A stretch of DNA of 64,000 nucleotides from Lysobacterales bacterium 63-13 (lineage in GTDB: Bacteria; Pseudomonadota; Gammaproteobacteria; Xanthomonadales; Rhodanobacteraceae), in assembly GCA_001899855.1 (NCBI GenBank), contig MKWR01000031.1:124001-188000 (forward strand). The letters are read 5' to 3'. This document shows positions 9,612 through 29,523 of the stretch, piece after piece (positions within the stretch are counted from its first letter, which is position 1; each line of letters starts with the position of its first letter). The position numbers and the translations under genes are program-made. The notes under the pieces are model-generated. The model ran no database searches. It saw only the letters and a program-made list of their open reading frames with translations, and was not told where the DNA came from.

Positions 9612-10430
9612 ATGGGCAATTTGGCGAGAAGTTTCCGGCGCATTGCCAACGAAATCGCCGAGATGCCGGGTATCCGCCATCTCGCCGAGCCTCTCTATCG
9701 ACGCGAGTTCAGTGCCAAGCGCAGCAGCGGCAACGCTTACTTCGGCGTCTATCCGGGTTTCGAAGAGGCGCGCCAAGCGGTGCCTGCTTCCCTGCCCGGC
9801 GATTTCGACAGCGCCGCTGCCGCCAACCTGTACGAGTACCGGTTTTCGGAAATTGAATCCAGCGACTATCCGGCGCTGTTCTGGCTCGGCCGGCTGCTGG
9901 AGCAGGGGCAGCGCCGTATTTTCGATCTGGGCGGGCATGTCGGCGTGAGCTACTACGCCTATCAACAGCACCTGGAATTTCCGACGGATTTGCGCTGGCA
10001 GGTACACGACACGGCCAGTGTGATGGAAAAGGGCAGGGACATCGCGCGTGAACGGGATCCTGCGCAACGGCTGGAATTCGTCGATCTCGAGATTGCCGAC
10101 GGCTGTGATGTCCTGATGGCAAAGGGATCACTGCAGTATCTCGATTACTCGCTGGCCGAGTTGATCCAGCGCATGCGGGTGCCGCCGCGACATCTGCTGG
10201 TCAACCTGACGCCGATGCATCCAAGTCTTTCGTTCTTCACCCTGCAACACATTGGAATTGCCGTATGCCCCTATCGAGTCACTGCTGTGCCGAAATTCCT
10301 GTTTGACATTCGCGCACTCGGCTATCGGCTCAACGTGCGCTGGGATCATCCGGAGCGCAGCGTGCGGGTGCCTTTCCATCCGGATTATTCGATCGATCGC
10401 TATCACGGCTTCCATTTCTGCCGCGATTGA
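9612..10430 (+). CDS. Putative methyltransferase, TIGR04325 (LIC12133) type
   Basis: A 272-residue protein with a Rossmann SAM-binding core: motif I is RIFDLGGHVGVSYYAY (about residues 101-116), then an acidic strand end and a SLQYLDYSL motif. The C-terminal region FFTLQHIGIAVCPYRV and the end YHGFHFCRD are typical of the TIGR04325 putative methyltransferases often found in polysaccharide loci. AAGG about 8 nt before ATG 9612 supports the start. It opens the plus-strand run that includes the NRPS/PKS genes, but a 240-bp gap follows it, so it may be a separate unit. Possible substrates are a sugar hydroxyl or the peptide product; undecided. Confidence 0.65.
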   Translation: MGNLARSFRRIANEIAEMPGIRHLAEPLYRREFSAKRSSGNAYFGVYPGFEEARQAVPASLPGDFDSAAAANLYEYRFSEIESSDYPALFWLGRLLEQGQRRIFDLGGHVGVSYYAYQQHLEFPTDLRWQVHDTASVMEKGRDIARERDPAQRLEFVDLEIADGCDVLMAKGSLQYLDYSLAELIQRMRVPPRHLLVNLTPMHPSLSFFTLQHIGIAVCPYRVTAVPKFLFDIRALGYRLNVRWDHPERSVRVPFHPDYSIDRYHGFHFCRD

Positions 10431-10488: not shown

Positions 10489-10671
10489 GCGTCTGCTCCA
10501 ATCTGGTCTACTTTGGCAACTGTCCAGTGATCCTTGAATCGAGCCAGCCGCCATGGAGGCGGATTTGACGGTGACGATCCTCTCAGGTGGGCCTTGTGCC
10601 CGGTATCCTGGCGGGATCATGATGCCTCGGCGTGACCGGTCGGCAGCAGCGGCAGCGAACGGAGCATGACC

Positions 10672-11595
10672 ATGAAGAATGCCTCTTTCAGCAATCTCGA
10701 TTTGGACTGGTCAAGTTTTGATCCCTGGCGTATCCAGCCGGTTCGGCACCGTTTGACAGATCATCCATTGCTGCAGCCCGACCAACTGGTGGCACTCGGA
10801 GCACGTCTGGAGGTGGATGGTCGCGTACGCACGCACAGCGACAACGCCGAAGCCGGCACTCCGTTCAACACAGCGCCGCGCCTGCATCCGAACCGACGCT
10901 CGGCAGCGGACACCCTCGAGCATATCCGTGAAGCCAAAGCCTGGATGTCGCTGCTCAATGTGCAGACCGACGACATCTATCGGACATTGGTTGATGAAGT
11001 GCTGGATGAGGTTCGAATCGGCATCGATCCGGTTGACCCAGGCATGTGCTATCGCGGCGGCTGGATCTTCGTGACGTCGCCAAGGACGATCACGCCATTT
11101 CATTATGACAAGGAGCACAACTTCATCCTGCAGATCCGGGGTCGCAAGACCGTGCACGTCTGGGATCATCGGGATGAAGTCGCCGCCAGCGAGGCTTCGC
11201 GCGACCGCTTTCACGCTTGCCACGAGCGCGATCTGCTGTTCTGGAATGAAGGCTTGCGCGCGCGTGCCCACTCCTTTCATCTGGAGCCGGGAATGGGCGC
11301 ATACATGCCATCGACCAGTCCGCACATGGTCGAGAACGGCGATGAACCTTCGATCACGATGAGCTTCACCTACTACACGGATTCGACCCGGCGCGACAGT
11401 CGCCTGCATCGCGTCCACTATCGGTTGCGTCAGCTCGGACTCAGGCCGCCTGCGGTCGGCAAGCGGACGGCCATCGATGGCCTTCTGCACGGAGCTTCCG
11501 CCGTTGCTTCCAACGCGCGCCAGCACGCGCTGCGCATGATGGGGCGCACGATCCACACGGATCGCGCACCCTACGCCTACGCCGATGTCTACTGA
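10672..11595 (+). CDS. JmjC/cupin-like Fe(II), 2-oxoglutarate-type oxygenase
   Basis: A 307-residue protein. ATG 10672 is preferred over ATG 10666 because GGAG (10661-10664) sits 7 nt before it but only 1 nt before the earlier ATG. A JmjC/cupin-like core is visible: FVTSPRTITPFHYDKEHN supplies the H-x-D pair (about H144, D146), QIRGRKTVHVWD is the strand typical of this family, and SPHMVENG supplies the distal His (about H218). Together these form the 2-His-1-carboxylate iron site. Members hydroxylate amino-acid side chains or small molecules. It lies 74 bp before the NRPS/PKS gene on the same strand, so beta-hydroxylation of an assembly-line substrate is plausible. Substrate not determined. 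Confidence 0.65.
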   Translation: MKNASFSNLDLDWSSFDPWRIQPVRHRLTDHPLLQPDQLVALGARLEVDGRVRTHSDNAEAGTPFNTAPRLHPNRRSAADTLEHIREAKAWMSLLNVQTDDIYRTLVDEVLDEVRIGIDPVDPGMCYRGGWIFVTSPRTITPFHYDKEHNFILQIRGRKTVHVWDHRDEVAASEASRDRFHACHERDLLFWNEGLRARAHSFHLEPGMGAYMPSTSPHMVENGDEPSITMSFTYYTDSTRRDSRLHRVHYRLRQLGLRPPAVGKRTAIDGLLHGASAVASNARQHALRMMGRTIHTDRAPYAYADVY

Positions 11596-11669
11596 AACCA
11601 CCCGGATTACCTGGGTTGGCTCGGGAATCTGCCGGGCGATCGTGATCAAGCCACGCCAGACTTGAGTCG

Positions 11670-14600
11670 ATGTCCGGACCGGATCGCCAAGCCGAAACCG
11701 AATTGATGCTTCGCGACGTGGTGGCGTGCGGGCCAGCGGCACGTTGCGACATCGTTTCGCCGATCGAATGTGCGCTCGGAGTCGAACTTCTGCAGCGCTT
11801 GCAGGCGCGTGCCAGGCGCCTGCGAATGGCCGAGGATGCGTTGTTCCAGGCTGCGTTGGCCGTGCTCGACGCCCGGCTGACCGGCAATCGTGCCGTGTGG
11901 GTCGCACAGCTGGATGGAAGGCTGCACGCGTATCAACTGCCCGATGACGCCATCGTCGATGACTGGCTGACTCAATCAGCCACTTCTTCCGCCAACGCCG
12001 GAGAAGTGGCCGGAGCCAGTGATGTTGGCTGCTGGGCTGGTACCCGGGAGTTGGCGGAATCGCGCATTGACGCCCGTTCGCTGGCCTGGTTCATCGTTTC
12101 GGGAGAGCAACCCTCGCTGGGCATTCTCGCCTGCTCGGCGCCGTTCGATGCGCACGCCGTGCAGTGCTTGCTCAGCGGTATGCAGGAAATCCTTGCGGGG
12201 CTGGTCAATGCCGATCGTCTCGCCGAGGTTTCGCCGCTGTCGCCAGCCGAACGCCAGCGCATGCTGGTGGACTGGAACGACACCGCACGGGTGCGCTCGG
12301 CGGATGACACGGTTCACGGCCTGTTTGCCGCGATGGCAGTCGTCTCTCCGCGAGCGATTGCCGTGGTCCATGGACAGGTACAACTGAGTTATGCGGAACT
12401 CGAGGCGCGGGCGTCCAGAGTTGCCGCGGGATTGAGCTCGCGTGGCGTGGTCGCCGGATCAACAGTTGCCCTGCTGCTCGAACGCGGCATCGATGCGATC
12501 GTCGCGATTATCGGCATCCTCAAGGCGGGCGGTGTCTACCTGCCGCTCGATCGCAGCCATCCGCGCGAGCGCCTGCAATTTGTCGTCAGGGATGCCAGTG
12601 CCGTGCTCGTAGTCGTCGATGACAGCGGTCACGGTGAACAACTGGATCTTGCTGTGCCTGAGATCACCATCGCAGCGCTTGAAAGCGGGTCCGCCGCGGG
12701 CTCTGCTGGCCTGGCTGCGCCGGGTGGCGACGCGTTGGCCTACGTCATGTACACCTCGGGCTCGACCGGCGAGGCCAAGGGTGTCGAGATTGCGCATCGA
12801 TCGATCATTCGCCTCGTTCGCGATGTCGACTACGTCCGCCTCGATGACGCGACGCGCATCCTGCACGCCGCGCCGCTGGGTTTTGACGCCTCGACCCTCG
12901 AAATCTGGGGCGCCTTGCTCAATGGCGGTTGCGTCGTGATACATCCCGAGCGCATACCCAGCGGCCCTGGCCTGGCTCGAACAATAAAACACGAGCGGGT
13001 GCGCATCGCCTGGCTGACCGCCGCCCTTTTCAACATGATCGTCGATGATGATCCGCATCATCTGGATGGATTGGAGCAGTTGCTGATTGGTGGTGAGGCG
13101 CTCTCGGTGGCGCATGTGCGGCGCGCGCTGGCGGCATTGCCGGAAACCAAGATCATCAATGGCTATGGTCCAACCGAGTGCGCGACCTTTGCTGCGACCT
13201 GGCCCATTCCGTCGGACCTACCCGCCGATACCGGGTCGATACCGATTGGCCGGCCCATTTCGGATACAAGTCTGTACGTTCTCAACGCGCGCGGTGAACC
13301 CGTACCGGTGGGCGTCGTCGGCGAACTGCATATCGGCGGAGCCGGCGTTGCACGCGGCTATCTCGGCCGCCCCGAACTGAGCGCCGAGCGCTTTGTCAGC
13401 GATCCGTTCGGCGGGCCCGGCGCACGCATGTACCGCACCGGCGACCTTGTGCGCTGGCTGCCGCAGGGTGTTGTTGAATTCATCGGTCGCGTCGACGGAC
13501 AGGTCAAGATCCGCGGGTTCCGCATCGAAACCGGCGAAATCGAGATGGCGCTGGCCAGGCACCCGGCATTGCGCGCGACCGCCGTGATGGCTCGCGAGGA
13601 TCGTCCCGGCCAGAAGCGTCTGGTTGCCTATCACGTCGATGGCGCACCGGTCACGGCCGCGCAGTTGCGTGATTTCCTGGCTCGCTCGCTGCCAGAGTTC
13701 ATGCTGCCTTCGCTGTTTGTCAGCCTCGCCGCGCTGCCGCTCACCGCCAACGGCAAGCTCGATCGCCGGGCCTTGCCGGTGCCGGATTCCACCCGCCCCG
13801 AACTGGCCGTCTCATTCGCGCCCGCGCATGGTCCGCTGGAGCAGCGGATCTGCGCCTTGTTTGCCGATCTGGTTGGCGTCGACGAGGTGGGGCGTGATGA
13901 CAATTTCTTCGACCTCGGTGGCAACTCCCTGCTCGCGGTCCGTGCGGTCGCGCGGCTCGATGAGGGCGCGGGCGTGCTGTCGATCACCGACTTTTTCCGC
14001 ACGCCGAATGCGCGCGAACTCGCCCGCATCATCGAGTCCGGCCAGGATGCGTCGGTGTCGGCGGCGCGCATGAGTCGGGGGCGTGGCGGCAACGCCGATG
14101 AACCCATCGCGATCGTGGCCATGGCCGGGCGATTCCCGGGCGCCAATGACGTCGAGGCGTTCTGGGAGAACCTCTGCGCGGGCCGCGATTCGATCACGCA
14201 CTTCGAGCCGGATCAGATTGACCCGTGGGTGCCGCCGGCACAGCGCGATGATCCCGCCTATGTGCGTGCCCGCGGGGTGATCGATGGTGTCGAGGATTTC
14301 GATGCCGCATTCTTTGGCATCAGTGCACGCGAAGCCGATTTGACCGATCCACAGCACCGGGTCTTTCTCGAACTGTGCTGGGAGGTCCTGGAACGCGCCG
14401 GCCATGTGCCAGATTCGCACGACGCGCCGGTAGGCATCTTTGCAGGCATGTACAACGCCACCTATTTCCAGCGGCATGTATCGGCTTACCCGGATCTGGT
14501 TGAAATGCTGGGCGCATTCCAGGTGATGCTGGCCAATGAAAAGGACTACATCACCAACCGGGTGGCCCACAAGCTCAACCTGACCGGTCCGTCCGTCAGC

Positions 14601-17600
14601 GTGCACACGGCGTGCTCGACCTCGCTGGTCGCCATCTGCCAGGCGGTCGATGCGTTGCGCGCCGGACGCTGCGCGATGGCTCTGGCCGGCGGCGCCTCGG
14701 TCACTTGCCCACCACGCAGCGGCTATCTTTATCAGGAAGGCGCAATGCTGTCGCCGGACGGGCATACGCGCACGTTCTCAGCTGATGCGCAGGGCACCGT
14801 TTTCAGCGACGGTGCCGCGGTGGTTCTGCTCAAGCGGCTCTCCGACGCCGTGGCCGATGGCAACCACATCCATGCCGTGATCCGAGGTTGCGCGGTCAAC
14901 AACGATGGCGGGGAGAAAGCCAGTTTCACCGCGCCCAGCGCGGCCGGTCAGGCGGCGGTCGTTGCCATGGCGCTGGATGATGCGGGGGTCGACGCACGCT
15001 CGATCAGTTATGTCGAAGCGCATGGCACGGCAACACCGCTGGGCGATCCGATTGAAATCGAAGGTCTGACCTCGGCGTTCCGGCGCAGCACCGATGCGAG
15101 GGGCTACTGTGCAATCGGGTCGGTCAAGAGCAATGTCGGCCACCTGGTCATCGCCGCCGGTGCCACCGGGTTGATCAAGACCGCGCTGGCGCTGGACTCG
15201 CGTCGATTGCCAGCGAGCCTGCACGTCGACGCCCTGAATCCGGTCATCGATTTCGCCAACTCGCCGTTTGTGGTCAACCGCGAACTGTGCGACTGGCAGG
15301 GTGACTGGCCGTTGCGCGCCGGTGTCAGTGCGTTTGGTGTCGGCGGCACCAATGCCCATGTGGTACTCGAAGAAGCCCCGCCCGCGCGTCTTTCAGATCG
15401 TATCGAAGGGCCGCATCTGCTGGTGCTCTCGGCGCGCACCAGCGAGGCGCTGGCAGAATCGGCGCGACGTCTCGTCGGGCATCTGCAGGCAAGCCCGGAT
15501 GAGAATCTGGCCGATGTGGCGTTCACCTTGAGCCAAGGCCGCAAGGCTTTCGCGCAACGCGTCACGGTGGTTGCCGACGCCCCTGCCGATGCCATTGCCA
15601 AGCTCGGCCAATTGAAGATTGCCAAGTCCAACAACCGTGTCGGCGATGCCGGTGTCGTTTTCATGTTCCCCGGTCAGGGCGCACAGTATCCGGGCATGGG
15701 CCGAGGCCTTCACGCACGCGAGCCGGTGTTTCGTGCAGCGCTGGATGAGTGTGTGGAACTGCTGGCCGGCGAGCTGGGCTTCGATTTGCGCGAACGCCTG
15801 TTTTCCGACGCGGCCGATGCCTTGCTTGATACCGGAGTCACCCAGCCGGCGACCTTCGCCATCGAATACGCGCTGGCCAGGTTGTGGATGTCGCTGGGCC
15901 TGGTTCCGCGCCTGTTGATCGGGCACAGCGTGGGTGAGTTCGTGGCGGCGGTGCTGGCCGGCGTGATGAGTCTTGAGTACGGGTTGCGCCTGGTCGCGCG
16001 GCGCGGTCGCCTGATGCAGGCACAACCTGCCGGCGCCATGCTTTCCGTACGCCTCGATAGCGAGTCGCTCAAGGCGCGACTGCCGGCTTCGTTGTCGCTG
16101 GCGGTCGAGAATGGGCCATCCGCTTGCGTGGTTGCTGGCGAAATCGCCGATATCGAAACGATGCGAATCGCATTGGAGGCCGATGGTGTTGCCTGTCGCG
16201 CGTTGCGCACGTCGCATGCCTTCCATTCGGCGATGATGGATCCCGTGCTCGCACCGTTCCGAGCGGAAGTCGGGCGCGTTGCCTTGTCGGCACCGAAGCT
16301 GCCAATCATGTCGACATTGTCGGCGAGCCTGCTTGCCGATGATGAGGCTACCTCAGCGGACTACTGGACTCGCCATTTGCGCGGTACGGTGCGCTTTCAT
16401 TCGGCACTGTCTTGCCTGCTGGAGTCCCATCCCGATGTCGCCCTGATCGAAGTCGGCCCACGCGCGACCCTGACCACGCTGGCTCGCCAGCAGGCGCAGA
16501 AGCCGCGCCTGGTCGTCGCTTCACTGGCCGATTCGGCAGCGCTCGAAGGCTCTGCGTGGCTGGCTGCAGTCGGTCAGCTCTGGGCGACAGCCGTACCACT
16601 CAAGCTTGCTCTTCTCGATCGTCGTATCCACAAACGCCGCGTGCGCCTGCCAACCTATCCGTTCGAGCGTCAGCGTCACTGGCTCGATGCACCGGCGGCG
16701 TCGGCCGATGTCGGCAAGATCACCCCTTGCGCACCCATTCCCCCCAGCCTGGTTCAGCCAGCTTTGCTTCCGGAGAACCCCATGGCGACCCCGTTGCCTG
16801 CCGCAGCCCCCGAGCGGCGCTTGCGCTTGCTGACCCAGTTGAAGTCACTGATCGAAGATGTCGCCGGCATCGACTTGGATGACGCCGACAGTGGCGCCAA
16901 CTTCATTGAGCTTGGCCTGGATTCGCTGGCCCTGACCCAGGTCGCCCTGCAATTGTCCAAGGTGTTCGGCATCAAGGTCAGCTTCCGCCAGTTGATGGAA
17001 AGCCTGTCCAATCTGGACAGCCTGGTCGCTCACATCGACCAGGAGGCACCGCCGGGCTCGCAGCCTGCTGTCGCATCGGTGAATGCACCAATCGCCACAT
17101 CAGGCGCCGTGCCCGCGGCGATGGCGTTGCCAATGCAAGCGATGGCAGCGGATGGCGGTTTGATCCAGCAGGTCATCCAGCAACAGATGCTGATCATGCA
17201 GCAGCAACTGGCCCTGCTTGGACAAGGCCAGGATTCACCTGCTGCCGCAGCGCCTCGCGTGATGCCAGCGAATCCAACGCCGGCGATGACCACCTCGCCG
17301 ACACCGGCAATCGACAGCGAGGAAGCAGCACTCGCCCATACTCAATACGATGTAAAAAAAGCATTTGGCGCCATCGCTCGCATCCACTCCCAACGTGACC
17401 CGTTGAGTCAGCGCCAGCGCCTGAGACTCGATGTCTTCATGCGCCGTTACATCGAGCGTACGCGAAAATCCAAGGCCTACACGACCGAGCATCGACCGCA
17501 TCTGGCCGATCCGCGCGTGGTCAACGGCTTCCGTCCGCTGCTCAAGGAAATCATCTACCAGATTGTTGTCGATCGCTCGAAAGGCGCGCGGGTCTGGGAT

Positions 17601-18890
17601 ATCGATGGCAATGAATACATTGATGCGTTGAACGGCTTCGGCATGAGCTTGTTTGGCTGGCAACCGGAGTTTGTCCTCGCTGCGGTTCGCCGCCAGTTGG
17701 AGCTGGGTTACGAAATCGGGCCCCAGCATCCGCTTGCTGGCGAGGTCGCCAAGCGCATCTGTGAGATGACCGGTTTTGATCGGGCCGGTTTGTGCAACAC
17801 CGGTTCGGAAGCGGTCATGGGCGCGATCCGCATTGCCCGCACGGTGACCGGCCGCGACACGCTCGTGATCTTCAGTGGCTCCTATCACGGCATCTTCGAT
17901 GAGGTGATCGTACGTGGCACCAAGAAGCTGCGCTCGATCCCCGCAGCGCCGGGGATCCTGCGCAACACCGCCGAACATGTCCTCGTGCTCGACTACGGCA
18001 CGCCGGAAACCCTGGCCATCATCCGCGAGCGGGCCAGCGAGATTGCCGCCGTGCTGGTTGAACCGGTGCAAAGCAGGCGCCCCGATTTTCAGCCACGCGA
18101 ATTCCTCCACGAGCTGCGTTCGATCACGCGTGACAGTGGCGCACTGATGATTTTCGACGAGGTCGTCACTGGCTTTCGCGCGCATCCGCGCGGTGCCCAG
18201 CACATCCTCGGTGTCGATGTCGATCTGGCCACCTATGGAAAAGTGCTGGGCGGCGGTTTTCCGATTGGCGTGATTGCCGGAAGGCGCGAATACATGGATG
18301 CGCTGGACGGCGGCCAATGGCAGTTTGGTGACGATTCGGTGCCGACCGTGGGTGTCACGTATTTCGCCGGCACCTTCGTCCGCCATCCGCTCGCCCTGGC
18401 CGCGGCGAATGCCGTGCTCGAACATCTTGCCGAACAAGGCCCGGCGCTGCAGGAAGGCATAAACGCACGCACCACAGCCATGGTGGAGAGCATGAATTCC
18501 GCCTGCGCAGAGCTGGGCGCGCCGATTGCGATCACCCACTTCGCCTCGATCTGGAAGGTCAATTTCAAGGAGGAACACCCAATGCAGGATTTGTTGTTCG
18601 CGATGATGCGCAGCCGCAACATTCATATCCTCGACAACTTCCCGTGCTTCATGACCAGCGCGCACAGCGAGACTGATTTCGTTTCCATCGCAACCGCGTT
18701 CCGCGAATCCGTCGCGGAATTGCAGGAAGCGGATTTCCTGCCGCGCTACAAGGTTGAGACGAAGCGGATGTTCGATGCCAGCAAGCCGCCCGTGCCTGGC
18801 GCACGCCTGGGCAAGGACGCCGAAGGCAATCCAGCCTGGTTTGTGCCCAACCCCGAAGTGCCGGGCAAGTACCTGAAGGTGGAGACATGA
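11670..18890 (+). CDS. Hybrid NRPS-PKS with integrated aminotransferase (C remnant-A-PCP-KS-AT-ACP-AMT)
   Basis: A 2406-residue megasynthase. Residues 1-190 look like the C-terminal half of a condensation domain (no HHxxxDG), joined by the usual [16 protein letters not shown] linker to an adenylation domain (about 210-705; YTSGSTG near 360, NGYGPTE, YRTGDL, NGKLDR). PCP Ser753. Ketosynthase about 811-1240 with Cys982, His1118 and His1158. Acyltransferase about 1330-1620 with GHSVGE (Ser1420) and HAFH at 1516-1519, which indicates malonyl-CoA. ACP Ser1752. A Gln-rich linker leads to a class III PLP aminotransferase (about 1890-2330, Lys2191 in TYGKVLGGG). There is no ketoreductase, so the beta-keto group should become a beta-amine, as in mycosubtilin/iturin synthetases. 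The adenylation pocket reads about D-A-L-W-L-G-G-T-F-K, valine-like. The next gene overlaps by 4 bp. Confidence 0.9.
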
Positions 18891-21800
18891 TGACTTCGGC
18901 AACGCCGGCGGACACCACGGTTGCGCTTGACTACGATCCCTTTGCCGATGCGCCGCTGGCGCGCGCGGTGCCGGCCACCGAATCACAGAAGGAGATCTGG
19001 CTGGCCGCGTCGATCGAGCCGGCAGCGTCGCTCGCCTACAACGAATCAGTGACGCTGGAGCTGCACGGGCCGCTCGATGCGAATGCCTTGCGCCGTGCGC
19101 TGCAGGCAGTTCTCGACCGACACGAGGCCCTGCGCGGAACGCTGAGTGCGGATGGCGAGCAGTTCTGCATCGTTGCCGAGGCCGAGTTGCCATTTGTCGA
19201 GCGCGACTTGTCGAGCTTCGACGAAGCGGGACGTCAGGCGGCGATTGCCGAGACCCTGCGCCGTGTCGTTGAAACGGAATTCGATCTCGCCAAATGTCCG
19301 ATGCTTCGTTGCGAGCTGTTGCGCTTGTCCGCCGAGGATCATCTGCTGATCCTGAGCACGCACCACATCGTCTGTGACGGCTGGTCGTTCGGCGTGATCG
19401 TGCGTGATCTGGCGGCCCTGTACGCGATTGGATGCGAAGCCAGCGGTCACGCGTTGCCGGCGGCGGATTCGTTCGCCGATTTCGCCGAGGAGGAAGCCCG
19501 CCATCCGTTGTCGGCGGAATTCCGCGCCGATGAAAGCTACTGGCTCAGCCGCTTCACCGATTTGCCCGAACCGCTCGAACTGCCCGTGGATCGGTCGCGT
19601 CCGCGTCAGCGCAGCTTCGCCTCGCAGCGCGAGGATCTGACTCTCGACGCCGAACTCGTCAGCGCGATCAAGCGGGTGGGTGCAAGCAAGGGAGCGAGTC
19701 TCTATGCAATCTTGCTGGCCAGTTTCGGTGTCTTGCTGCAACGACTGGCCGGGCAGGATGATCTCGTCATCGGGATTCCGTCCGCAGGGCAATCCGGCAC
19801 CGGTCGACCGGGCATGGTCGGCCATGCGGTCAACGTGTTGCCGGTGCGCATCAACTTCGATCCCGCCGTGTCGTTCGCCGATACCTTGAGCGGTGTGCGC
19901 AGCCATTTGCTGGATGCTTTCGAACACCAGCGCTACACCTTTGGAACCTTGCTCAGGCGCCTGGCCATGGCCCGCGACCCGGGCCGTTTGCCGCTGGTCT
20001 CGGTGTTGTTCAATCTGGATCCCGGACTGGATGACGACAGCCTTGGCTTCAAGGGACTCAAGGCAAGGTTCGCCGGTGTTCCGCGCAGCTACGAAAACTT
20101 CGAGCTGTTCATCAATGCGGTACAGGCAGGCGACGCCTTGCGCCTCGAATGCCAGTACAACAGTGCACTGTTTGATGCGGTGACGATCCGGCGCTGGCTG
20201 GAGCTTTACGCAACGCTGTTGCGTGATATCACCACTCACGCTTTGCAGCCGCTGTCATCGCTGAACATTCTCTCGGCGCAGGCGCGTGACGAGTTGCGCG
20301 CCTTGCAACCCAAGCCAAACCCGTTTACGCGTTGTCGCGTCGAGTCACTCTTCTTTGCCCAGGCAGCGACCACGCCGGATCGAATTGCACTGCGTTCAGG
20401 CGGGCAGGCATGGACCTATGCCGAGCTCGCCGCACGCGCACGGGTGATGGCTGCAGCCCTGCGCGCGCGCGGAATCGGTGCCAACAACCTCGTCGGCGTC
20501 TCGCTCGATCGTGGTGCGGACATGATTGCCGCCATCCTTGGCGTTCTCGCCAGCGGTGCGGGCTATGTTCCGCTGGATCCGGCATTTCCCCGCGAGCGCC
20601 TTGAATTCATGGCCGCCGATGCCGGACTGGCATTGTTGTTGACCGAGTCGAAACACGTTGCGACCATGCAATTCGACCCTGCACGCACCCTTGTCATCGA
20701 TGCGCCAGACGCACTCGATCCGGCGCATGGCGGTTTCACCGCCATCGAGTCCGCTGCCGATATCGAATCGGTTGCGTATGTGATCTACACCTCAGGCTCC
20801 ACGGGCAAACCGAAAGGCGTGCGCGTGCCGCATCGATCGGTGGCGAATTTCCTTGCCAGCATGCGCAATCAACCGGGGCTCGAGGCTTCGGACCGCCTGC
20901 TCGCGGTTACCACGCTGTCCTTCGATATTGCCGTCCTTGAAATCTTCCTTCCGCTCAGTGCAGGCGCGATGCTGGTGCTTGCCTCCGGCGCGCATAGCAA
21001 GGAAGGGCGAGACATTGCCGGCTTGCTCGACGAGCATGACATCAGTGTCATGCAAGCCACACCCTCGACATGGCGCATGTTGCTTGAAGCAGGATGGCGC
21101 GGACGCCCTGGATTCAAGGCCTTGTGCGGCGGCGAACCACTGCCCGCCGATCTCGCTGCCGAACTGCTGAAGCGCTGTGATTCGCTGTGGAACCTCTACG
21201 GCCCGACCGAAACCACGGTGTGGTCGACGCTTGCGCGAATCGAGGATCCCGTGCACGGGATTTCAATTGGCCGGCCAATCGACAACACCACGGTCTGGAT
21301 CCTCGACGCGCATGCTGCGGTGTGTCCCATTGGAGTGCCTGGCGAAATCGCCATCGGTGGCGAAGGTGTCACCCTCGGCTATCTCGATCGGCCCGATTTG
21401 ACTGCCGACCGCTTCATCTCCGATCCGTTTTCAGACACGGCAGGGGCTCTTGTCTACCGTACCGGTGACCGCGGTCGCTGGCGCAACGATGGCCAGCTCG
21501 AACATCTGGGCCGTCTCGATCATCAGGTCAAGTTGCGCGGCTTTCGCATCGAGTTGGGCGAAATTGAAAGCAACCTCGCGCGTCACCCGGATATCGCCCA
21601 GGTTGTCGCCATGGTTCGCGAGGATCGCCCGGGTGACCAGCGCCTTGTGGCCTATCTGACCGCGCAGCCCGCGTGCGTCGCCGGGATTGATGACGCAACC
21701 CTGCGCACACACCTGCGCGCGACCCTGCCGGATTACATGATCCCGCAGCATTTTGTCCGTCTCGACAGCATTCCATTGTTGCCGAATGGCAAGATAAATC

Positions 21801-24800
21801 GTGCGCTGCTGCCGTCGCCGCTGGCTGCAATATCGATTGGAGATGTGCCGCATGCGACTCCCAGAAACGAATTTGAGCAGCGTGTCGGCAAGGCCATGGA
21901 AGAAACCCTGGCGCTGCCGAGCATTGGTATCCACGATGACTTCTTCGCCCTTGGCGGTCATTCACTGCTGGCTGCGCAATTGACCGCGCGACTCAACCGC
22001 GAGTTTGGCGTGGCGCTCTCATTGCGCAGCATCTTCGATACGCCGAATGCGGCGGGACTGGCCGCAGCAGTTGTCGCTCAGATGGAATCTGAAGAGATCT
22101 TCCGGCCAGCCCCCGTGCCGCATCGCGAAAACCAGACGCAGGCGCAGCTATCGCTGATGCAGGAGCGTCTGTGGTTGCTGGAGAAGCTGCATCCGGGCCG
22201 GGTCGCCTACAACACGCCCTCGGCCCATCGGTTGCGCGGCGCCCTTGATGAGTCCGCATTCGATCGTGCGTTCACCGACATGATCGAGCGTCAGCCGATC
22301 CTGCGTACCGCCATCCATGACGAAGGTGGCACGGTGATGCAGGTGGTTGAGGAACGCATCGACTTCCATCTGTTTCCGGCCGAGGACCTCAGCGCAGTAG
22401 CGGCTGATCAGCGCGAAGCGGTGCTGCTGCAACGCCTGCAGGCATTGACCGACACGCCTTTCGATCTGACCCGGGCACCGCTGTTCAGTGCACGCATGTT
22501 CAAGCTCGACCGCAACGATCACGTTCTGTTCTTCATGCCTCACCACATCATCTGGGATGGCTGGTCGTTTGATTTGTTCTATGTCGAGCTGAGCGAGCTC
22601 TATGCCGCAGGTCTGGCCGCACGCAAGCCGAACCTCGCCCCGCTTGCCGTCAGCTATGGGGATTTCGCCGAATGGCATCGCGACTGGCTGGAGGGCCCGC
22701 AGTTGCAGGCCCAGCTTGCGTTCTGGCGGGAGCGCCTCACGCAGACGGGAAAACCCAACAACCTGCCAACTGACCGGCCACGCCGAGCGGGCATGTCGGG
22801 TGAAGGCCGGACCGAGTGGATCCGCATTGACCGTGACCAGACCGACGCTTTGCATTCACTCGCACGCGAGGCGGATGCGACCGTCAACATGACCATGCTG
22901 GCGCTCTACTTCGTGCTCCTGCATGGCGTCACCGGCGAACGTGACCTGGTGATCGGGACGCCGGTGCGCGGACGCAATCAGACCGAACTCGAAGCGGTCA
23001 TGGGTTACTTCACCAACCTGGTTCCGCTGTATCTCACATTGACGCCCGAGCGCACCTTCATCGAGTTCGTGCGTGAGGTCAAACGCGTCGTCATTGACAG
23101 TTTTGGCAACCCCGATGTGCCACTCGAATATCTGCAGAGCGAACTGAAGCGGGTTCATGGCAGCGATGCCTTGCTCTATCAGGCATTGTTTTCGTTCCAG
23201 GATGCGCGCCAACGCAAGACCGACTGGTCGGGTCTGGACCACGAGCAGATCCTGTTGTTCCAGCGCGGAGCAACCGAAGATCTCGGCTTGTGGTTCCTCG
23301 AGAACGCGAAAGGCATGGTTGGCGGTGTCACCTACAACGCCGACATTTTTCGTGCGGATACCGCGTGCATGCTGCGTGAGCGCTATCTCGAACTGATGGC
23401 CAGTGTGCTGGCTGACCCGCGACGCTCGATCTCCGCGCTGACTCGCGTCGGCGCCACTGCACCGGCAAACGAAGTTGCGCCGTCGCCGATGACAGTCGAC
23501 TTGGCGCAATCCTCGGCCTCGCTTCACGCCCTGTTTGAACAACAGGCGGCACATGCGCCTTCCGCCACGGCGCTGCGCCAGGGTAGTTGGGGAACCAGCT
23601 ATGTCGAATTGGACCAACGTGCAAACCGGCTGGCCGTGGCGCTTGCCAGGCGCGGTGCCGGTCCAGGCCGATGCGTTGCCCTGATTGCCGAGCACGGCAT
23701 CAACCGGATCGCCGCATTGATCGGTATCCTCAAGACCGGCGCGAGATGCCTGCCGCTCGATCCCGCCGATCCGCCGTCACGGCTCACGCAATGGCTTGCG
23801 TGCGACCAGGTGGATATCGTCGTTGGCGACAGCGCGCTGGGAGAGGCGCTGGCGTGGCCTCGCACGAAGACGCTCTGCCTTGATGCCGACACCCCCGAGA
23901 TCGTATCGGCTCCCGCTGGCCGTTTTTCCGGTGGGCCCGCTGGCGCATCGGATATTGCGCTCAGCCTGGCGGCTCCGGATTTGCGAGGGCAGCCCCAAAT
24001 CCGGCATTACAGCCATCGTCTCATCAATCAAAAACTTGCCGCCTTGCGCCACGCGCTTGGCTTGGGTGCGGGTGAGTGTCTGCTTGGCACGGCGGCGGCA
24101 GACACGATGATGTCGATCATCGAGTGCATGCTTGCCCTGGTTCATGGCAACGAGTTCGTGCTGACTACGCGCAATGATCTTGGCAAGGCTGGCTCGCTTG
24201 CCAATCTGCTGTCGTCGAGCAAGGCGGGCACGCTGTTCGCAAACGCCGACACACTGCAGTGTCTTTTTTCCGGAAGCGATAATGTTATATTTGATGCGCG
24301 CGTGATCTGTACAGGAGCGAAACCATCAGCGGCGCTGGCCGACGACATCTGCGCGCGCAGCAAGGGGTTGTGGACTGCACTATTGACGGATGCCACGATC
24401 ATCGCCAGTTGTGGCCAGGTTGGAGTTCCGCTCGAAGGGGTGCATGTCGGAAGCGCCCTGGATGGCGTGGAACTGCGCGTGCTCGACGAGAGTGGAGCGG
24501 CCCTGACGGTTGGCGCCATCGGTGAAATCTGCGTCAGCGACGTCAATTTGTGCGACCCGGATGGATCGACACTATTGCAGCGCAGTGGCTGGCGTGGTCG
24601 CTGGTTGGCGCATCGACATATCGAGGAGCTGGGCCGGATTGATCGACGCGTACAGATTCACGGGCGTGATGTGGAACCGGCGGAAATCGAAGGGCTGCTC
24701 TGTGCAATTGCGGGCGTGCAGCGAGCGCTGGTCATTGCGCGTACGGATCGTCATGGCGAATCCCGATTGCTGGCGTATCTGACATCGCACGATGGGGCGA

Positions 24801-25273
24801 TCCTCGATATGGGGCAATTGCGTAATACCCTGGCCGGTCACCTGCCCGGATACGCCCTGCCGCAAGCTATCGTCGTGCTTCAAACGTTTCCGTTGCTTGC
24901 CAACGGCAAGATCGACCTGGCGGCGTTGCCAACGCCGGCATCGGCCAGCGAGACTGGCCTCGTCGATGATGAGCCGACTACTTCCGCTGAGCGCTTGCTG
25001 GCCGATATCTGGAAATCCATGTTGCATGTGCCGCAGATCCTTGCGAATGACAATTTCTTCGATCTGGGCGGTGACTCGCTGCTTGCGCTGTCGATGGTCG
25101 TCGAGGTCGAGAAGGCAACCCGGGTACGTTTGAACCTGCTCAAGCTGGCCAACAGCAGCTTGCGGGCAATCGCTGCCGAATTGCCCGAGGCGGCCGTTGC
25201 GGAAGCCGAACAGCCGCGCCGCGGCCTGCAGCGTGCATTGAGCTTGTTCGGCCTGGGTAAGAAGAGACCATGA
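18887..25273 (+). CDS. Non-ribosomal peptide synthetase, C-A-PCP-C-A(degenerate)-PCP
   Basis: A 2128-residue NRPS overlapping its partner by ATGA. C1 (about 30-450) has HHIVCDG at 159-165. A1 (about 480-970) has [24 protein letters not shown] and NGKINR; its pocket reads about D-I-L-Q-L-G-L-V-W-K, the glycine-type code. PCP1 Ser1026. C2 (about 1080-1510) has HHIIWDG at 1219-1225. The second adenylation domain (about 1540-2020) keeps its C-terminal subdomain ([16 protein letters not shown]) but has lost the A3 P-loop, the YGPTE motif and the YRTGD motif, so it should not adenylate. PCP2 Ser2064 is intact. About 40 residues follow with no thioesterase or reductase. Release must be by other proteins, with the two downstream hydrolases the obvious candidates. 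Confidence 0.9.
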
Positions 25274-26040
25274 GTTCACGCCTGCAGCCGTGCTGGATCG
25301 AGCGTGGGGATGCGCGTCTGTTTGCTGCCTATGACTGCGCCGATGAGGTGCCGCATAGCGGCGTTCTGATGTGTGCACCACTGTTGCATGAGTATGTGCG
25401 CAGCTATCGCATGTTCGCGGTTCTTGGACGGGCGCTGACCAAGCTCGGCTATGGGGTTTTACGCTTCGACTATCAGGGCTGTGGCGATTCGTCAGGCGAT
25501 GACGATGCCTTCTCGATGACATCAGCCAAGCTCGATGCCGCAGCTGCATTGGCAGCCTTGCGCGAACGCGTGGGTGCGGCACCGTTGATCGTTCTCGGGA
25601 TTCGCGCAGGGAGTTTCGTGGCGTGGCCGCTGGCTGCAGCCGTGGATGCCACCCTCTGGCTGTGGCAACCCGTTCTTGATGGCGCCACCTATGTGGCTGA
25701 TCTCGAACGTCACGATCGCGTCGAGCGCAATTCCCGCCTGCGCTATCAATTGGGTGCGCCGGCAGACTGCGCGCCTGACCGCCAAACCTTGATGGGCTTT
25801 CCGCTATCGAGCAACCTGATCCGCGAGCTGAAGGCCGAGCAGATCCAGTCCATGTCGCAGTCGTCGCCGCGCATCCTGGTTGCGGACACCGCCAACAAGC
25901 GGGGTGCGATCAGTGGTGCCCGTGACATCGTCCTGCCGACGGAGCTTGCCAGTTGGGCCGATGAAGTCGAAATGGGGCATTTCCCGCCGCCTGCGATTGA
26001 ACGGGTTGCCGCCGCCCTTTCGATGGAGCATGGACGATGA
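25270..26040 (+). CDS. Alpha/beta hydrolase-fold protein, exosortase-A hydrolase 2-like
   Basis: A 256-residue alpha/beta-hydrolase-fold protein whose ATG overlaps the NRPS stop. GVLMCAPLLHEYVRSYRM, LRFDYQGCGDSSGD and LWLWQPVLDGATYV match the pattern I recall for the exosortase-A-system hydrolase 2 family (TIGR03101). The nucleophile elbow reads G-I-R-A-G with Arg112 where Ser is expected. A C-terminal His is present in GHFPPP. It may be catalytically silent or use another mechanism. In exosortase-A loci this family sits beside an acyl-CoA ligase and ACP; here it is coupled to an NRPS lacking a thioesterase. A role in releasing or handling the carrier-bound product is inferred. Confidence 0.7.
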   Translation: MSSRLQPCWIERGDARLFAAYDCADEVPHSGVLMCAPLLHEYVRSYRMFAVLGRALTKLGYGVLRFDYQGCGDSSGDDDAFSMTSAKLDAAAALAALRERVGAAPLIVLGIRAGSFVAWPLAAAVDATLWLWQPVLDGATYVADLERHDRVERNSRLRYQLGAPADCAPDRQTLMGFPLSSNLIRELKAEQIQSMSQSSPRILVADTANKRGAISGARDIVLPTELASWADEVEMGHFPPPAIERVAAALSMEHGR

Positions 26041-26840
26041 GCCCCGGCGAGGAAATCGTCGCTCTCCAGGAGGATGTTTTCGGCATTCTCAGTCGTCCTG
26101 CGCAAGATTCCGACAGCCGTGTTTGCATCATCCTGCTCAATGCCGGGTTCATCCACCGCAGTGGCCCATTCCGCTTGCATGCGCGGCTCGCGCGTGCGCT
26201 CGCAGCGCAGGGCGTGGCCGCGTTTCGATACGACGCGCCGGGTGTGGGTGATTCCCTGGTGCGCAGCAGTCAGACCCAGGTGCAGGCAACCCGCGACAGT
26301 CTCGATGTGCTTGAGGCGCGCTTTGGCTATCGGCGCTTCGTGGTCGGTGGCATTTGCAGTGCGGCCGATCTTGGCTGGTTGATGGCACTGGCCGAACCGC
26401 GCGTGGTCGGCTTGATCTCGATCGATGGGCTGGCGCGCCAGGGCCGCTGGTACCTTTTCGGCCGGTTGCGCCGTGCATTGCAGAAGTCGCCCGGTGAATG
26501 GATTTCCGCGATACGCCTTCGCCTGGCCCGATCAGGTTCTGCGCTGACCGCCGCGGTGAGCGCTGCGGATCTGCGCGAGTGGCCGGTCGTTGGCACTGAA
26601 CGTGAACAACTGCAGAGCCTCATCGAACGCAAGCTCGAATTGTTTGCCTTGTTCACCGGCGGAACCTCGTATTTTCTGCATGCGCGCCAATGGCGTGCCA
26701 CGTTTGGAAGCGCGACACGCTCACCGTTGATTGAATTCCGCTTCTGGCCACGCAGCGACCATACGTTTTTCGCCGAGTCCGACCGGCGCCGCTTGATCGA
26801 CACGGTCGTGACATGGGCTGCGGCCCGCTTCAGGCAATAG
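26037..26840 (+). CDS. Alpha/beta hydrolase, exosortase-A hydrolase 1-like
   Basis: A 267-residue alpha/beta hydrolase overlapping the previous gene by ATGA. It has the N-terminal strand (CIILLNAGFIHRSGP), the oxyanion/turn motif FRYDAPGVGDS and an elbow G105-I-C107-S-A109 that puts a cysteine at the nucleophile position. A conserved His appears near the end in WPRSDHTFF. The layout resembles the exosortase-A-associated hydrolase 1 family (TIGR03100). Cys-nucleophile alpha/beta hydrolases can act as acyltransferases or thioesterases, so it is the better candidate of the pair for off-loading the NRPS. Its last 11 bp overlap the convergent deacetylase gene. Confidence 0.7.
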   Translation: MSPGEEIVALQEDVFGILSRPAQDSDSRVCIILLNAGFIHRSGPFRLHARLARALAAQGVAAFRYDAPGVGDSLVRSSQTQVQATRDSLDVLEARFGYRRFVVGGICSAADLGWLMALAEPRVVGLISIDGLARQGRWYLFGRLRRALQKSPGEWISAIRLRLARSGSALTAAVSAADLREWPVVGTEREQLQSLIERKLELFALFTGGTSYFLHARQWRATFGSATRSPLIEFRFWPRSDHTFFAESDRRRLIDTVVTWAAARFRQ

Positions 26841-27840
26841 CGTCCTGCGGGCGGCCGAACAGGCGCGGCAGTTCGACGATGGCGCGAAACCAGCCTCGAT
26901 CGATGTACGGTTCGATGGCGACTCGTGGCATGTCGTAGCGATTGGCATTGATGCCGGCGAAACCGCCATAGTAGGAAAACGCGTAGGCGACGCCGAGTTT
27001 TCGCAGGCACTCGATGGAATCCTGATTGAACGAATTCCTGTTGCCGACCGGGTAGGAGAAATAGTCCATGCGCTTGCCGATCTCGGTCTCGATGCGCGCG
27101 GCGCAGGTCGATATCTCTGTCCATTGTTCCGCGGCCGAGGATCCGGATAGGACAATATGGTTGACGGTGTGTCCGCCAATCGTCATGCCGGCCGCATCCA
27201 TTTCACGAAGCATGTCCCAGCTCATCCACAGATCTTCATGATGCAGGGAGGGAGGCGAAGCCTGGGTTGCATCGCGCAAATCTGCCAGGAAGCGCTTGGC
27301 TTGGTCGCCAGGCAAGGATTTGAACTTTCGCAACATTGTCCGGATGACGGCCTCGCGTTGGCCGACAACCAGCCGCTGTGGTTGGGGCAACCATTGCGGC
27401 AGGTCGATCTCGTCGCGATCGGTACGTCGGATCTGGCTGGCGATTTCGTCCCACCATGCCAGGCGCGGATCATCGATGAAGCCCGTGGCAATGAAAAACG
27501 TTGCCGTCAGGCCGTGCCGGCGCAAGGTCGGAACAGCGCAGTCGTAGTTGTCCTTGTAGCCATCGTCAAACGTGATCAGGACGTGGCGGCCGCTGGAGTC
27601 CCTGCGCGCCAGGTCGATCTCGGCAGGGGAGATGACATCGCTGTTGAGCTTCAGCCAGGCCAGTTGCTGATCGAAGCCTTCCTCGCTTGCGCTCCACAAG
27701 CCCCGATCCAGCTCGGAGCGGCTGCCGTCACCAATACGATGGTAGTTGAGGCCAACGATTCCCCGCGCCGGCATGCACGCGGCCAGCAATGGCCGCAAAT
27801 GACTTTTGTCAAGGAAGCTCGCGAGTTTGCGAAGTTTCAT
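26830..27840 (-). CDS. Polysaccharide deacetylase family protein (CE4)
   Basis: A 336-residue NodB/CE4-type deacetylase. ATG 27840 is chosen because AAGGAG sits about 5 nt upstream; a longer frame upstream adds only Cys/Arg-rich sequence. Motif 1 is VLITFDDGYKDNY (catalytic and metal Asp), motif 2 is GGHTVNH (H-x-x-x-H), and motif 3 appears as FSYPVGN, where FSYPxG is usual. No signal peptide is obvious. It probably removes N- or O-acetyl groups from a polysaccharide or lipid-linked sugar. It begins the minus-strand group with the flippase (127 bp apart) and converges on the hydrolase gene with an 11-bp overlap. Confidence 0.8.
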   Translation of the reverse strand: MKLRKLASFLDKSHLRPLLAACMPARGIVGLNYHRIGDGSRSELDRGLWSASEEGFDQQLAWLKLNSDVISPAEIDLARRDSSGRHVLITFDDGYKDNYDCAVPTLRRHGLTATFFIATGFIDDPRLAWWDEIASQIRRTDRDEIDLPQWLPQPQRLVVGQREAVIRTMLRKFKSLPGDQAKRFLADLRDATQASPPSLHHEDLWMSWDMLREMDAAGMTIGGHTVNHIVLSGSSAAEQWTEISTCAARIETEIGKRMDYFSYPVGNRNSFNQDSIECLRKLGVAYAFSYYGGFAGINANRYDMPRVAIEPYIDRGWFRAIVELPRLFGRPQDAIA

Positions 27841-27969
27841 GCCACTCCTTGGGCGCGGATTTCCGGCGCGGATACGACAGACTGCACCGTGTGCTGCAGA
27901 AAAGAAGCGGAAGTCCCCCGACGTGTCCAAGGTCGATTATCGACGCGTCGCCAAGCATTGCAAGTGCTT

Positions 27970-29523
27970 TCAGCGCCGTTCCAGATCATCACGCCAGCGC
28001 TTGATGTGCGGGGCAATCCAGCCGAGCAGCACCGGGTAGCGTTCAGCCAGCATGAGGACTTCGTGCGCATCGCGATGGTGCCAGGCGTGCAGGCGCAGGG
28101 TCATGCCGACATAGACCAGCGCGTAGAGGACACCGGCAGCCAGCTCGGTCCATGGGCCTGGCAATGCCCAGACGAGGACACCCGCCGCGACGGCGGCGAC
28201 CAGCGCCGATGCAAACAGCAAGCCGATTTCCCGCCACGGCAAGCGCAGCGAAAAGATGCGAACGATTCCGGTCAGGGTCAGGATGAAGACCAGGCTGCGC
28301 GAGATCGCGTGCGCGGCGACGGCACCGTAGAGTCCGTAAGTCGGAATCAACGCAATGGCGGCGATCGCGGTGAACACGATTGACAGCGAGGCAAAGATTG
28401 CCCGCACACGCTGGTTGTCGGTCGTTGAAAGCAGAGCTCCGAAGGCGCCCTCCGACAAGGTCAGGCCACCGACAACGACCATGATCCTCAACAATTCGAC
28501 GACGGTTGCATAGCGCGGGCCATACATCAGGGCGACGGCAGGTTCCGACCACAGCACGCCGACGCCCGCCAGCATCAGGCCAAGGAAATGGAAGTAGCGC
28601 AGCGAATTGGAAAGGATCTCGTTGACGCGCTGCTGGCCGCTGGCGCCGAACGCATGCGCCATTGACGGCATCAGCACGGTGTTGAGTCCCGATGAGAGCA
28701 GATCAAGGCCGCCGCGGGTCAGGGATGCGGCAATGGTGAAATACGCCACCTCGGCCGCACCAATCCGATCGTTGAGCATCCAGGTCTCGATCGACTTGTT
28801 GCTGAACACCGCGGCCAAGGTCAACACCACCGTCCACAACAGATGATGGCGGAGCCGCTTGAGCAAGGCGGCATCAAGCGGTTTGAAGTGCGCCCGCATT
28901 CCGCCACGACGCAGCTTCATGGTGGCATAGCTGGCATAGGCGACGCAGGTGATGGCGAACAGGATCAGGTAAGCCAGCAGCGCCGCATGCATCCACCAAA
29001 GGATGACCACCGCGATCGCGTTGAGCAGGCTGATCACGATCGCCGAGTAGGCTTCGACGTCGAAACGTCCATGCCCCTTGGCAATGGATATGTTGAACAG
29101 ATACATCGTCTTGGCTGTGCTGCTGACGAGGACGATGGCGGCGAACAGCCACAGACTCCCCGAATCCCAACCCGCCGGTCGGAAGTAAGGCATGGCGAAG
29201 AGATAGAGGAGTGAAACCAGGGCAATGCAGGCAAGCTGATGCTTGAGCAGCCAGCCGTGCACATTGGCAGCGTCCTCGGGTGAATCACGCCCCAGACACT
29301 CGGAGACAAAACGGATGCCGGAGGTGGTCAGGCCGTTGTTGCTGATCAGGATCAGCACGCCAGCCAGCCACACCAGGTAGGAATAGTGGCCGAATTGCTC
29401 GGGGCCGATGCTGCGCGCGATCAGCGCACTGACGACCAGTCCGGCCGCATAGATCACATAGGTTGAGCCCGTCATCTGCAAAGCCGCGCGCAAGGCTGTG
29501 CCGGGGCCAAACGCTTGCTTCAT
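27970..29523 (-). CDS. Wzx-type polysaccharide flippase (MOP superfamily)
   Basis: A 517-residue polytopic membrane protein with about 12-14 hydrophobic segments and the usual MOP start: a short amphipathic N-terminus, then a first helix followed by ARSIGPEQFGHYSYLVWLAG, the conserved loop of O-antigen and EPS flippases. It would move an undecaprenyl-linked repeat unit across the inner membrane. This is the first of two flippases here; the other lies at 52.4-53.9 kb. It neighbours a deacetylase and, beyond a divergent 188-bp gap, a GT4 glycosyltransferase. A MurJ-like or small-molecule exporter role is less likely. Confidence 0.8.
   Translation of the reverse strand: MKQAFGPGTALRAALQMTGSTYVIYAAGLVVSALIARSIGPEQFGHYSYLVWLAGVLILISNNGLTTSGIRFVSECLGRDSPEDAANVHGWLLKHQLACIALVSLLYLFAMPYFRPAGWDSGSLWLFAAIVLVSSTAKTMYLFNISIAKGHGRFDVEAYSAIVISLLNAIAVVILWWMHAALLAYLILFAITCVAYASYATMKLRRGGMRAHFKPLDAALLKRLRHHLLWTVVLTLAAVFSNKSIETWMLNDRIGAAEVAYFTIAASLTRGGLDLLSSGLNTVLMPSMAHAFGASGQQRVNEILSNSLRYFHFLGLMLAGVGVLWSEPAVALMYGPRYATVVELLRIMVVVGGLTLSEGAFGALLSTTDNQRVRAIFASLSIVFTAIAAIALIPTYGLYGAVAAHAISRSLVFILTLTGIVRIFSLRLPWREIGLLFASALVAAVAAGVLVWALPGPWTELAAGVLYALVYVGMTLRLHAWHHRDAHEVLMLAERYPVLLGWIAPHIKRWRDDLERR

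Follow-up and report, generated by a model that had tools for sequence, protein, structure and literature searches.

The window analysed here is a 64,000-nucleotide stretch of contig MKWR01000031.1 (positions 124,001 to 188,000, forward strand) from Lysobacterales bacterium 63-13, whose genome measures 3.75 Mb. It carries a hybrid nonribosomal peptide synthetase-polyketide synthase (NRPS-PKS) line within an exopolysaccharide (EPS) locus. The line consists of two large proteins, called A and B below, and is followed by two alpha/beta hydrolases, h2 and h1, which resemble the hydrolases of the exosortase-A (XrtA) system. The features of the line, with coordinates in the window and strand in brackets, are as follows.

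11670-18890 (+), protein A, NRPS-PKS-aminotransferase, 2406 aa (open reading frame and Pfam/NCBIfam)
~11670-12269 (+), A: N-terminal remnant resembling a condensation (C) domain, by eye
12336-13775 (+), A: adenylation (A) domain A1, pocket code D A L W L G G T F, Val-like
~13833-14030 (+), A: peptidyl carrier protein (PCP), by eye
14100-15390 (+), A: ketosynthase (KS)
15657-16499 (+), A: acyltransferase (AT), HAFHS motif
16836-17036 (+), A: acyl carrier protein (ACP)
17559-18692 (+), A: class III aminotransferase
18887-25273 (+), protein B, NRPS, 2128 aa (open reading frame and Pfam/NCBIfam)
18965-20296 (+), B: C1
20351-21793 (+), B: A2, code D I L Q L G L V W, presumably Gly-like
21890-22072 (+), B: first PCP
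~22130-23476 (+), B: C2, HHxxxDG retained
~23519-24916 (+), B: A3, degenerate adenylation domain
24995-25180 (+), B: last PCP
25270-26040 (+), h2, alpha/beta hydrolase, TIGR03101-like, 256 aa, Arg112 (25603-25605) at the nucleophile elbow
26037-26840 (+), h1, alpha/beta hydrolase, TIGR03100-like, 267 aa, Cys107 (26355-26357) at the elbow

The open reading frames of A, B, h2 and h1 are joined by three 4-bp overlaps in a row, and Pfam/NCBIfam models give the domain order A-PCP-KS-AT-ACP-class III aminotransferase for A and C-A-PCP-C-A-PCP for B, in agreement with a preliminary description of this DNA. The catalytic motifs are present throughout the NRPS, PKS and aminotransferase domains of both proteins, except in the last A domain of B (A3), which is devoid of the TSGSTG and YGPT motifs and must be regarded as degenerate; the order claimed for B is right, but the A domain of its last module is not an intact one. 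The N-terminus of A resembles the C-terminal lobe of a condensation domain, as judged by eye and not by a profile. Neither a fatty-acyl loading domain nor a ketoreductase (KR) was seen in the line, and domain scans found no thioesterase domain (PF00975) at the C-terminus of the window's protein B.

The hydrolase pair

The two hydrolases had been likened to the exosortase-A system hydrolases 2 and 1. Their best NCBIfam models are indeed TIGR03101 for h2 (81.6 bits) and TIGR03100 for h1 (62 bits), but both scores lie below the curated cut-offs (202.75 and 168.45, respectively), and the models themselves are typed only as hypothetical equivalogs. What the pair shares with true members is its gene order and an unusual residue at the nucleophile elbow: Arg in all 21 aligned h2 rows and Cys in all 22 h1 rows, the latter with Asp-His near the end in 22 of 22 (Asp241-His242, at 26757-26762, in the window). 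In the true XrtA pairs read (10 genomes with a hydrolase 2 above the TIGR03101 cut-off), h2 has the same Arg and the neighbouring h1 carries GLCD(A/G)AS and (D/N)HT. As pair order and Arg/Cys elbows are shared in this way, the comparison shows h2 and h1 to be a putative sister group of the TIGR03101/TIGR03100 members, that is, relatives below the cut-off, and not unrelated proteins.

Both proteins are predicted to fold as alpha/beta hydrolases (mean pLDDT 88.1 for h1 and 88.8 for h2), with the Cys of h1 and the Arg of h2 at the strand-helix turn, and fold searches against the PDB returned mostly esterases, lipases and other hydrolases among the matches listed. That they are ordinary serine hydrolases can be dismissed, as no elbow Ser occurs in the aligned rows.

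Recurrence of the line, the hydrolases and the EPS genes

The nearest counterparts of the window's line occur in Dokdonella species. Among 60 relatives, orthologues that span most of protein A share 68-71% identity within the same genus and 61-66% in other genera of the family. Among the best 80 of 404 relatives, to which the scan of named genomes was confined, the line is found in Dokdonella, Dyella, Luteibacter, Frateuria, Rhodanobacter, Lysobacter, Luteimonas and Pseudoxanthomonas, as well as in other members of these families, some Rhodocyclaceae, Rubrivivax and metagenome-assembled genomes of Burkholderiales. The gene order is thus not unique to one strain, and recurrence of the same genes across genera excludes chance. 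A plasmid-borne cluster was considered and rejected, since eight plasmid records give short partial NRPS/PKS matches only.

We next scored 398 genomes of the order, counting the line as present by the aminotransferase region of A only (E<=1e-150); this region was found in 86 of them, at E<=1e-240 in 74 and in a divergent form in 12. The presence of h2 was scored with a profile built from 21 rows at E<=1e-30, a limit set after seeing a gap, and 25 genomes with values between 1e-30 and 1e-12 were counted as lacking it; h2 was so found in 96 genomes. Line and h2 occur together in 85 genomes, the line alone in one, h2 alone in 11 and neither in 301 (Fisher p 3e-73, kinship ignored). Both lie on the same contig in 77 of the 85, at a distance of less than 10 kb in 30, 10-50 kb in 43, 50-100 kb in two and more than 400 kb in two. 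Even where this line is missing, the tie to peptide synthesis is mostly kept: h2-h1 directly follow another NRPS(-PKS) in eight of the 11 genomes with h2 only (G206, G313, G367, G158, G271, G346, G351 and G022), and in a further one, G067, they stand beside NRPS genes twice.

Both hydrolases appear in the DNA read for 29 of the 80 named loci, including those of Dokdonella, Lysobacter, Luteimonas and Pseudoxanthomonas, and in all of these except L117 the pair directly follows B or is fused to it. A PCP and h2 share one open reading frame in Luteimonas kalidii (L102), Pseudoxanthomonas helianthi (L103), two closely related Luteimonas (L120, L122) and, in other families, L158 and L159. In L154 and L161 h2 and h1 are themselves fused into one protein. 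Locus L161 (genome G475) holds two such h2-h1 fusions (616 and 590 aa), with acyltransferase and glycosyltransferase matches close by and no NRPS match in the 20 kb read. An ACP-like open reading frame precedes h2 in all ten true XrtA loci (E<=1e-5 in eight, 1e-4 and 1e-3 in the other two). This fits the earlier proposal that the megasynthase takes the place held in known loci by the acyl-CoA ligase and ACP, as here a PCP often stands before h2 or is fused to it.

The end of the line proved to be variable. The sole line-bearing genome of the 86 without h2, G032, has a B protein ending in a PF00975 thioesterase (112 bits) and keeps the XrtA-type Wza; B of L099 ends in a thioesterase likewise, with no h2/h1 in the DNA read. 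Altogether this domain occurs in six of 76 B C-termini, the alignment comprising the window protein and 75 of 77 others (L078 and L084, at contig ends, were left out). Of 78 B proteins, 27 have an intact A3 and 23 a degenerate one; in the other 28 it is absent or unrecognised, a class that includes loci with a thioesterase or unrecognised stretches after C2. The state of A3 requires a minimum of 16 changes on one tree. In contrast to this decay, all 78 retain the HHxxxDG motif of C2, and 74 of 78 have a PCP behind C2. Even where it lacks an A domain of its own, the last carrier thus seems to be in use; the simplest idea is that A2 may load it.

The link to EPS genes was assessed with searches for wza and XrtA genes, which took in the first 80 listed of the 86 genomes bearing the line. 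The nearest wza, of any kind, lies less than 50 kb from the line in 61 of the 80, while about three would be expected; it is 50-100 kb away in eight, far in one and on another contig in ten. Among 36 genomes of the family, an XrtA-type Wza above the cut-off is present in all 17 that have the line (one of them G022, whose line is divergent) and in 5 of the 19 that lack it (p 3e-6, ignoring kinship); the line thus gives the impression of an optional supplement to EPS loci of this type. Of 17 regions read around A orthologues, several of which end at contig ends, 8 contain a Wzy-type gene, and three more (G002, G003 and G005) show Wzy on longer reading. Each of these three is a single locus of about 60 kb holding the line, h2-h1, AsnB, Wzy, Wzx and XrtA-type export genes; an initial impression from the first 40 kb that G002 and G003 lack EPS genes by the line was overturned when Wzx, Wzy and export genes appeared in the next 40 kb. 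That the line is coupled to exosortase-A-type hydrolases and an EPS locus, as first proposed from the window, is thus borne out, the association being recurrent and far above chance.

The surrounding EPS locus

The window locus is an exosortase-A-type EPS locus without an exosortase. Its other features, and the genes next to the line, are listed below.

46467-47330 (-), Wza-type XrtA-system EPS export protein, TIGR03027 202.3 (cut-off 180), above cut-off
44880-46427 (-), XrtA-system chain-length determinant, TIGR03007 349.9 (cut-off 278.85), above cut-off
44104-44883 (-), XrtA-type tyrosine kinase-like protein, TIGR03018 165.4 of 230.65, below cut-off
26830-27930 (-), polysaccharide deacetylase
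27970-29523 (-), Wzx-type flippase
35417-36757 (-), Wzy/O-antigen-ligase-type polymerase, PF04932
48286-49725 (-), TviB-like UDP-HexNAc 6-dehydrogenase, 580.9 of 592, just below cut-off
50991-52112 (+), WecA-like initiating glycosyl-1-phosphate transferase
6491-8434 (-), AsnB-type amidotransferase, asn_synth_AEB above cut-off; TIGR03108 432.7 of 816.9, below cut-off
6203-6454 (-), free-standing acyl carrier protein, 83 aa
4295-5422 (-), NAD-synthase-like protein, PRK00876 above cut-off; true start probably near 5250
10666-11595 (+), JmjC/cupin-8 oxygenase (Pfam)
9612-10430 (+), TIGR04325-family methyltransferase, above cut-off

The preliminary description had placed an ACP and an AsnB-type amidotransferase nearby, as is the case, and had seen the line flanked by Wzx and Wzy; both of the latter are present, but they lie, like the glycosyltransferases and the deacetylase, on the downstream side. 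The lack of an exosortase, noted before for the window, holds for the whole genome, in which neither PF09721 nor TIGR03109 finds a match at E 0.001. The TviB-like dehydrogenase suggests an amino-uronic acid in the EPS. The oxygenase, a probable tailoring enzyme, precedes A in many orthologous loci, though not in all.

As regards the acyl-CoA ligase of XrtA loci (TIGR03098), the window proteins scanned match it only through NRPS A domains (191.5 and 288.1 of 592.35). A decayed ligase was suspected at 5253-6179 and rejected, as this gene is prmC (TIGR03534 above cut-off), and tblastn with the ligase of a relative detected no remnant there. A second carrier-based sub-cluster, composed of AsnB, an ACP or AMP ligase, the NAD-synthase-like gene and the gene x3232, recurs near the line, being found at 3232-8434 (-) in the window and also in the regions of L149, G002, G003, G005 and G050; in relatives, too, the NAD-synthase-like gene adjoins AsnB. 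In the window, prmC stands between the NAD-synthase-like gene and the ACP, which is the position of the ligase in L149.

Some further genes may be mentioned. A 394-aa protein at 34188-35372 (-) matches no Pfam or NCBIfam family and recurs at 56-65% identity in ten EPS regions read; it is a putative EPS enzyme. At 8521-9420 (-) lies a secreted-looking protein ending in FGSGFD, relatives of which adjoin the line in several genera. The end of the window (52321-63999) holds a second polysaccharide gene set (flippase, GT4 enzymes and a Polysacc_synt_2 dehydratase) with a GC content at third codon positions (GC3) mostly lower than that of the line, and a second wza lies beyond the window, at G000:C31:194413.

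Compared with a known XrtA/PEP-CTERM EPS locus, the present one is alike in its Wza and chain-length proteins above the XrtA cut-offs, the h2-then-h1 order with Arg and Cys elbows, the carrier upstream of h2 and the nearby AsnB. It differs in having no exosortase, in its hydrolases scoring below the curated cut-offs, in the NRPS-PKS line replacing the ligase and free ACP next to h2, and in the residue preceding the last His of h1, which is Asp here and Asn in several true members.

Predicted product, release and destination

The A1 domain of the window looks Val-specific by its pocket code. PMC9113097 lists DAFWLGGTFK as a Val code, and the first nine letters of it are found in A orthologues. 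Among 68 A1 codes, 55 are of the form DA(L/F)...TF, four read DIL.IGGIM and nine are unreadable. A2 codes are mostly of DIL/DIM type, a few B proteins having what we take to be Ser-like ones, and all 27 readable A3 codes form one Gly-like family. The HAFHS motif of the AT is, as we assume, of the malonyl type; given such an AT, and in a line where no KR was seen, the aminotransferase is expected to produce a beta-amine. The product should then be a Val-derived 3,4-diamino acid followed by Gly or Gly-Gly. For the “acyl-peptide” suggested earlier no support was found: a fatty-acyl loading domain was not seen, and the first A domain looks Val-specific. PKS-linked HemL-like aminotransferases are known from NRPS-PKS lines such as those for microcystin (McyE) and of the iturin/mycosubtilin type, and the order KS-AT-ACP, class III aminotransferase, NRPS modules is the same here. 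Unlike these lines, the present one has a Val-like A-PCP, thus an amino acid starter instead of a fatty or aryl one, lacks a cis thioesterase and resides in an EPS locus.

Gene content and order, co-occurrence, fusions, residue signatures and the thioesterase swap are the observed ground for the mechanism we propose; the substrates, the chemistry of h1 and h2 and the transfer to EPS are what we infer from it. The locus would build an EPS with exosortase-A-type export, to which a further module adds the synthesis of a short non-ribosomal peptide. Protein A would load an amino acid into its Val-like pocket, extend it with malonate and turn the beta-keto group into an amine, which on an amino acid starter should give a 3,4-diamino acid. 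Protein B would add Gly, and in many relatives a second Gly, so that the chain ends on the last PCP. From there it would be freed by the h2/h1 pair and not by a thioesterase: h2, in the position of a thioesterase domain, probably docks on or shapes the carrier-bound chain as a noncatalytic or differently acting partner, while h1 would supply the nucleophile through its invariant Cys and the His near its end. The likeliest acceptor group would be an amine or a hydroxyl, either on the lipid-linked repeat of the EPS or on its nucleotide sugar, the result being a peptide-decorated EPS. The XrtA hydrolases might follow the same carrier-h2-h1 logic, fed there by an ACP.

The individual parts of this mechanism deserve different degrees of confidence. 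That h2/h1 take part in release is what we consider probable. Attachment of the peptide to EPS, argued from purely genetic evidence (the shared location, the confinement of the line to XrtA-type export and the lack of a further exporter among the scanned genes), stands a little short of an even chance. For the reading as a whole, in which carrier, h2 and h1 off-load a Val-derived, beta-amino, Gly-containing peptide, probably onto EPS, we regard the case as evenly balanced. Like a canonical type I NRPS thioesterase (PF00975), h2/h1 hold the end of the line, a position which the thioesterase itself occupies in G032 and L099; the thioesterase is, however, a single Ser hydrolase and not an Arg-elbow plus Cys-elbow pair, and both kinds coexist in five loci.

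Several observations weigh against this mechanism. On the side of the substrates, the window A1 code DALWLGGTF is one letter off the published Val code, the commonest A2 code (DIM.VGGVY, 20 of 78) is without a substrate match, and the window A2 code is only presumed to be Gly-like. As for the hydrolases, h2 may lack catalytic activity, its nucleophile position being held by Arg, and the five loci (of 80 named ones) with both a thioesterase and h2/h1 show that the pair is not everywhere a plain thioesterase substitute, so that the simple idea of h2 replacing the thioesterase everywhere had to be abandoned: four Lysobacter loci (L112, L114, L119 and L121) have PCP-thioesterase-PCP followed by h2-h1, and L117 has a thioesterase near the end of B with h2-h1 upstream. 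A further NRPS gene follows B in L095, L098 and L100, and B is therefore not always the last protein. With regard to location, no more than 29 of the 80 named loci show both hydrolases in the DNA read, no NRPS was found in the DNA read around h2 of G085 (at a contig end) and G362, and the line is more than 400 kb from h2 in G240 and G250. In many other genera a distance of 20-45 kb separates h2/h1 from the NRPS, the pair being placed at the far end of the locus and 4-5 kb from wza, an arrangement that fits a role in EPS and weakens one in docking.

The last of these arrangements also bears on the strongest competing explanation, doubtful in our opinion but a serious one, namely that the line makes a free secreted small molecule (a signal, protease inhibitor or antibiotic), merely co-regulated or co-inherited with the EPS, which h2/h1 hydrolyse off the last carrier. 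NRPS/PKS lines usually yield free metabolites, a statine-like diamino acid plus Gly would suit a protease inhibitor, and the thioesterase that can end the same line in G032 and L099 gives a free acid or ring in most systems; in G240 and G250, moreover, the line is equally remote from the wza that accompanies h2. Yet h2/h1 remain next to wza when far from the NRPS, the line occurs in the family only alongside XrtA-type export genes (17/17), and the thioesterase-bearing G032 still has its XrtA-type Wza. Nor was a dedicated exporter met among the window genes scanned, which were not all of them; the transport genes named there are Wzx, Wza and a porin-like barrel.

It is unlikely, though several observations favour it, that h2/h1 are editing (type II-like) or EPS-modifying hydrolases, with the terminal C domain releasing the chain onto an amine and the last PCP being accessory. 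The C2 motif persists in 78/78 through at least 16 changes of A3 (27 intact, 23 degenerate, 28 absent or unrecognised), h2 has no Ser nucleophile, the pair also occurs without an NRPS, after an ACP-like open reading frame, in XrtA loci, and thioesterase and h2/h1 are found together in five loci. Against this stand the PCP-h2 fusions in six loci, the thioesterase ending B in the h2-less genome, the PCP kept after C2 in 74/78 and the Gly-like A3 codes (27/27), all of which point to a loaded last carrier and to release after it. Finally, a lipid- or protein-linked anchor or primer tying the EPS to the cell in place of PEP-CTERM proteins and exosortase would agree with exosortase A being above the cut-off in 0/80 line-bearing genomes (two weak hits) versus 10/10 true-TIGR03101 genomes, but is very improbable, as the line showed no gene for lipid loading or lipidation, G449 combines NRPS-type genes adjoining h1-h2 with an exosortase hit of 176.3 bits (below cut-off), and XrtA loci use h2/h1 alongside the exosortase, so that h2/h1 alone do not replace it.

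Returning to the off-loading of the peptide by carrier, h2 and h1, we searched open-licence PMC papers (subscription papers and MIBiG lay outside this scope) and found neither a description of such a cluster nor a function for these hydrolases; the word “hydrolase” is absent from PMC1569441, the PEP-CTERM/EpsH paper. PMC9012009, a paper on floc formation, reports an EPS cluster of Zoogloea and Aquincola with two asparagine synthetase genes and does not mention “hydrolase”. Both the domain types and the EPS system of the present locus are thus familiar, but their combination, widespread as it is, has no description in the literature searched.

In a broader form, which we put forward tentatively and with less confidence than any part of the mechanism above, carrier, h2 and h1 may constitute a general transfer module putting assembly-line products on exopolysaccharides, fed by ACP and ligase in XrtA loci and by NRPS/PKS lines in exosortase-free ones. 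A two-subunit Cys-type transferase would then usually stand in for the thioesterase, and EPS modified with non-ribosomal peptides would be spread over Rhodanobacteraceae, Lysobacteraceae and some Burkholderiales. The tie to NRPS genes, the PCP-h2 fusions and the thioesterase in the h2-less genome make the exosortase-A hydrolases testable as release enzymes that work with a carrier. Should the peptide prove to be attached to EPS, common bacteria of soil and water would possess a non-ribosomal means of decorating their exopolysaccharides, and a type of cluster that genome mining would otherwise file as an orphan metabolite would be accounted for.

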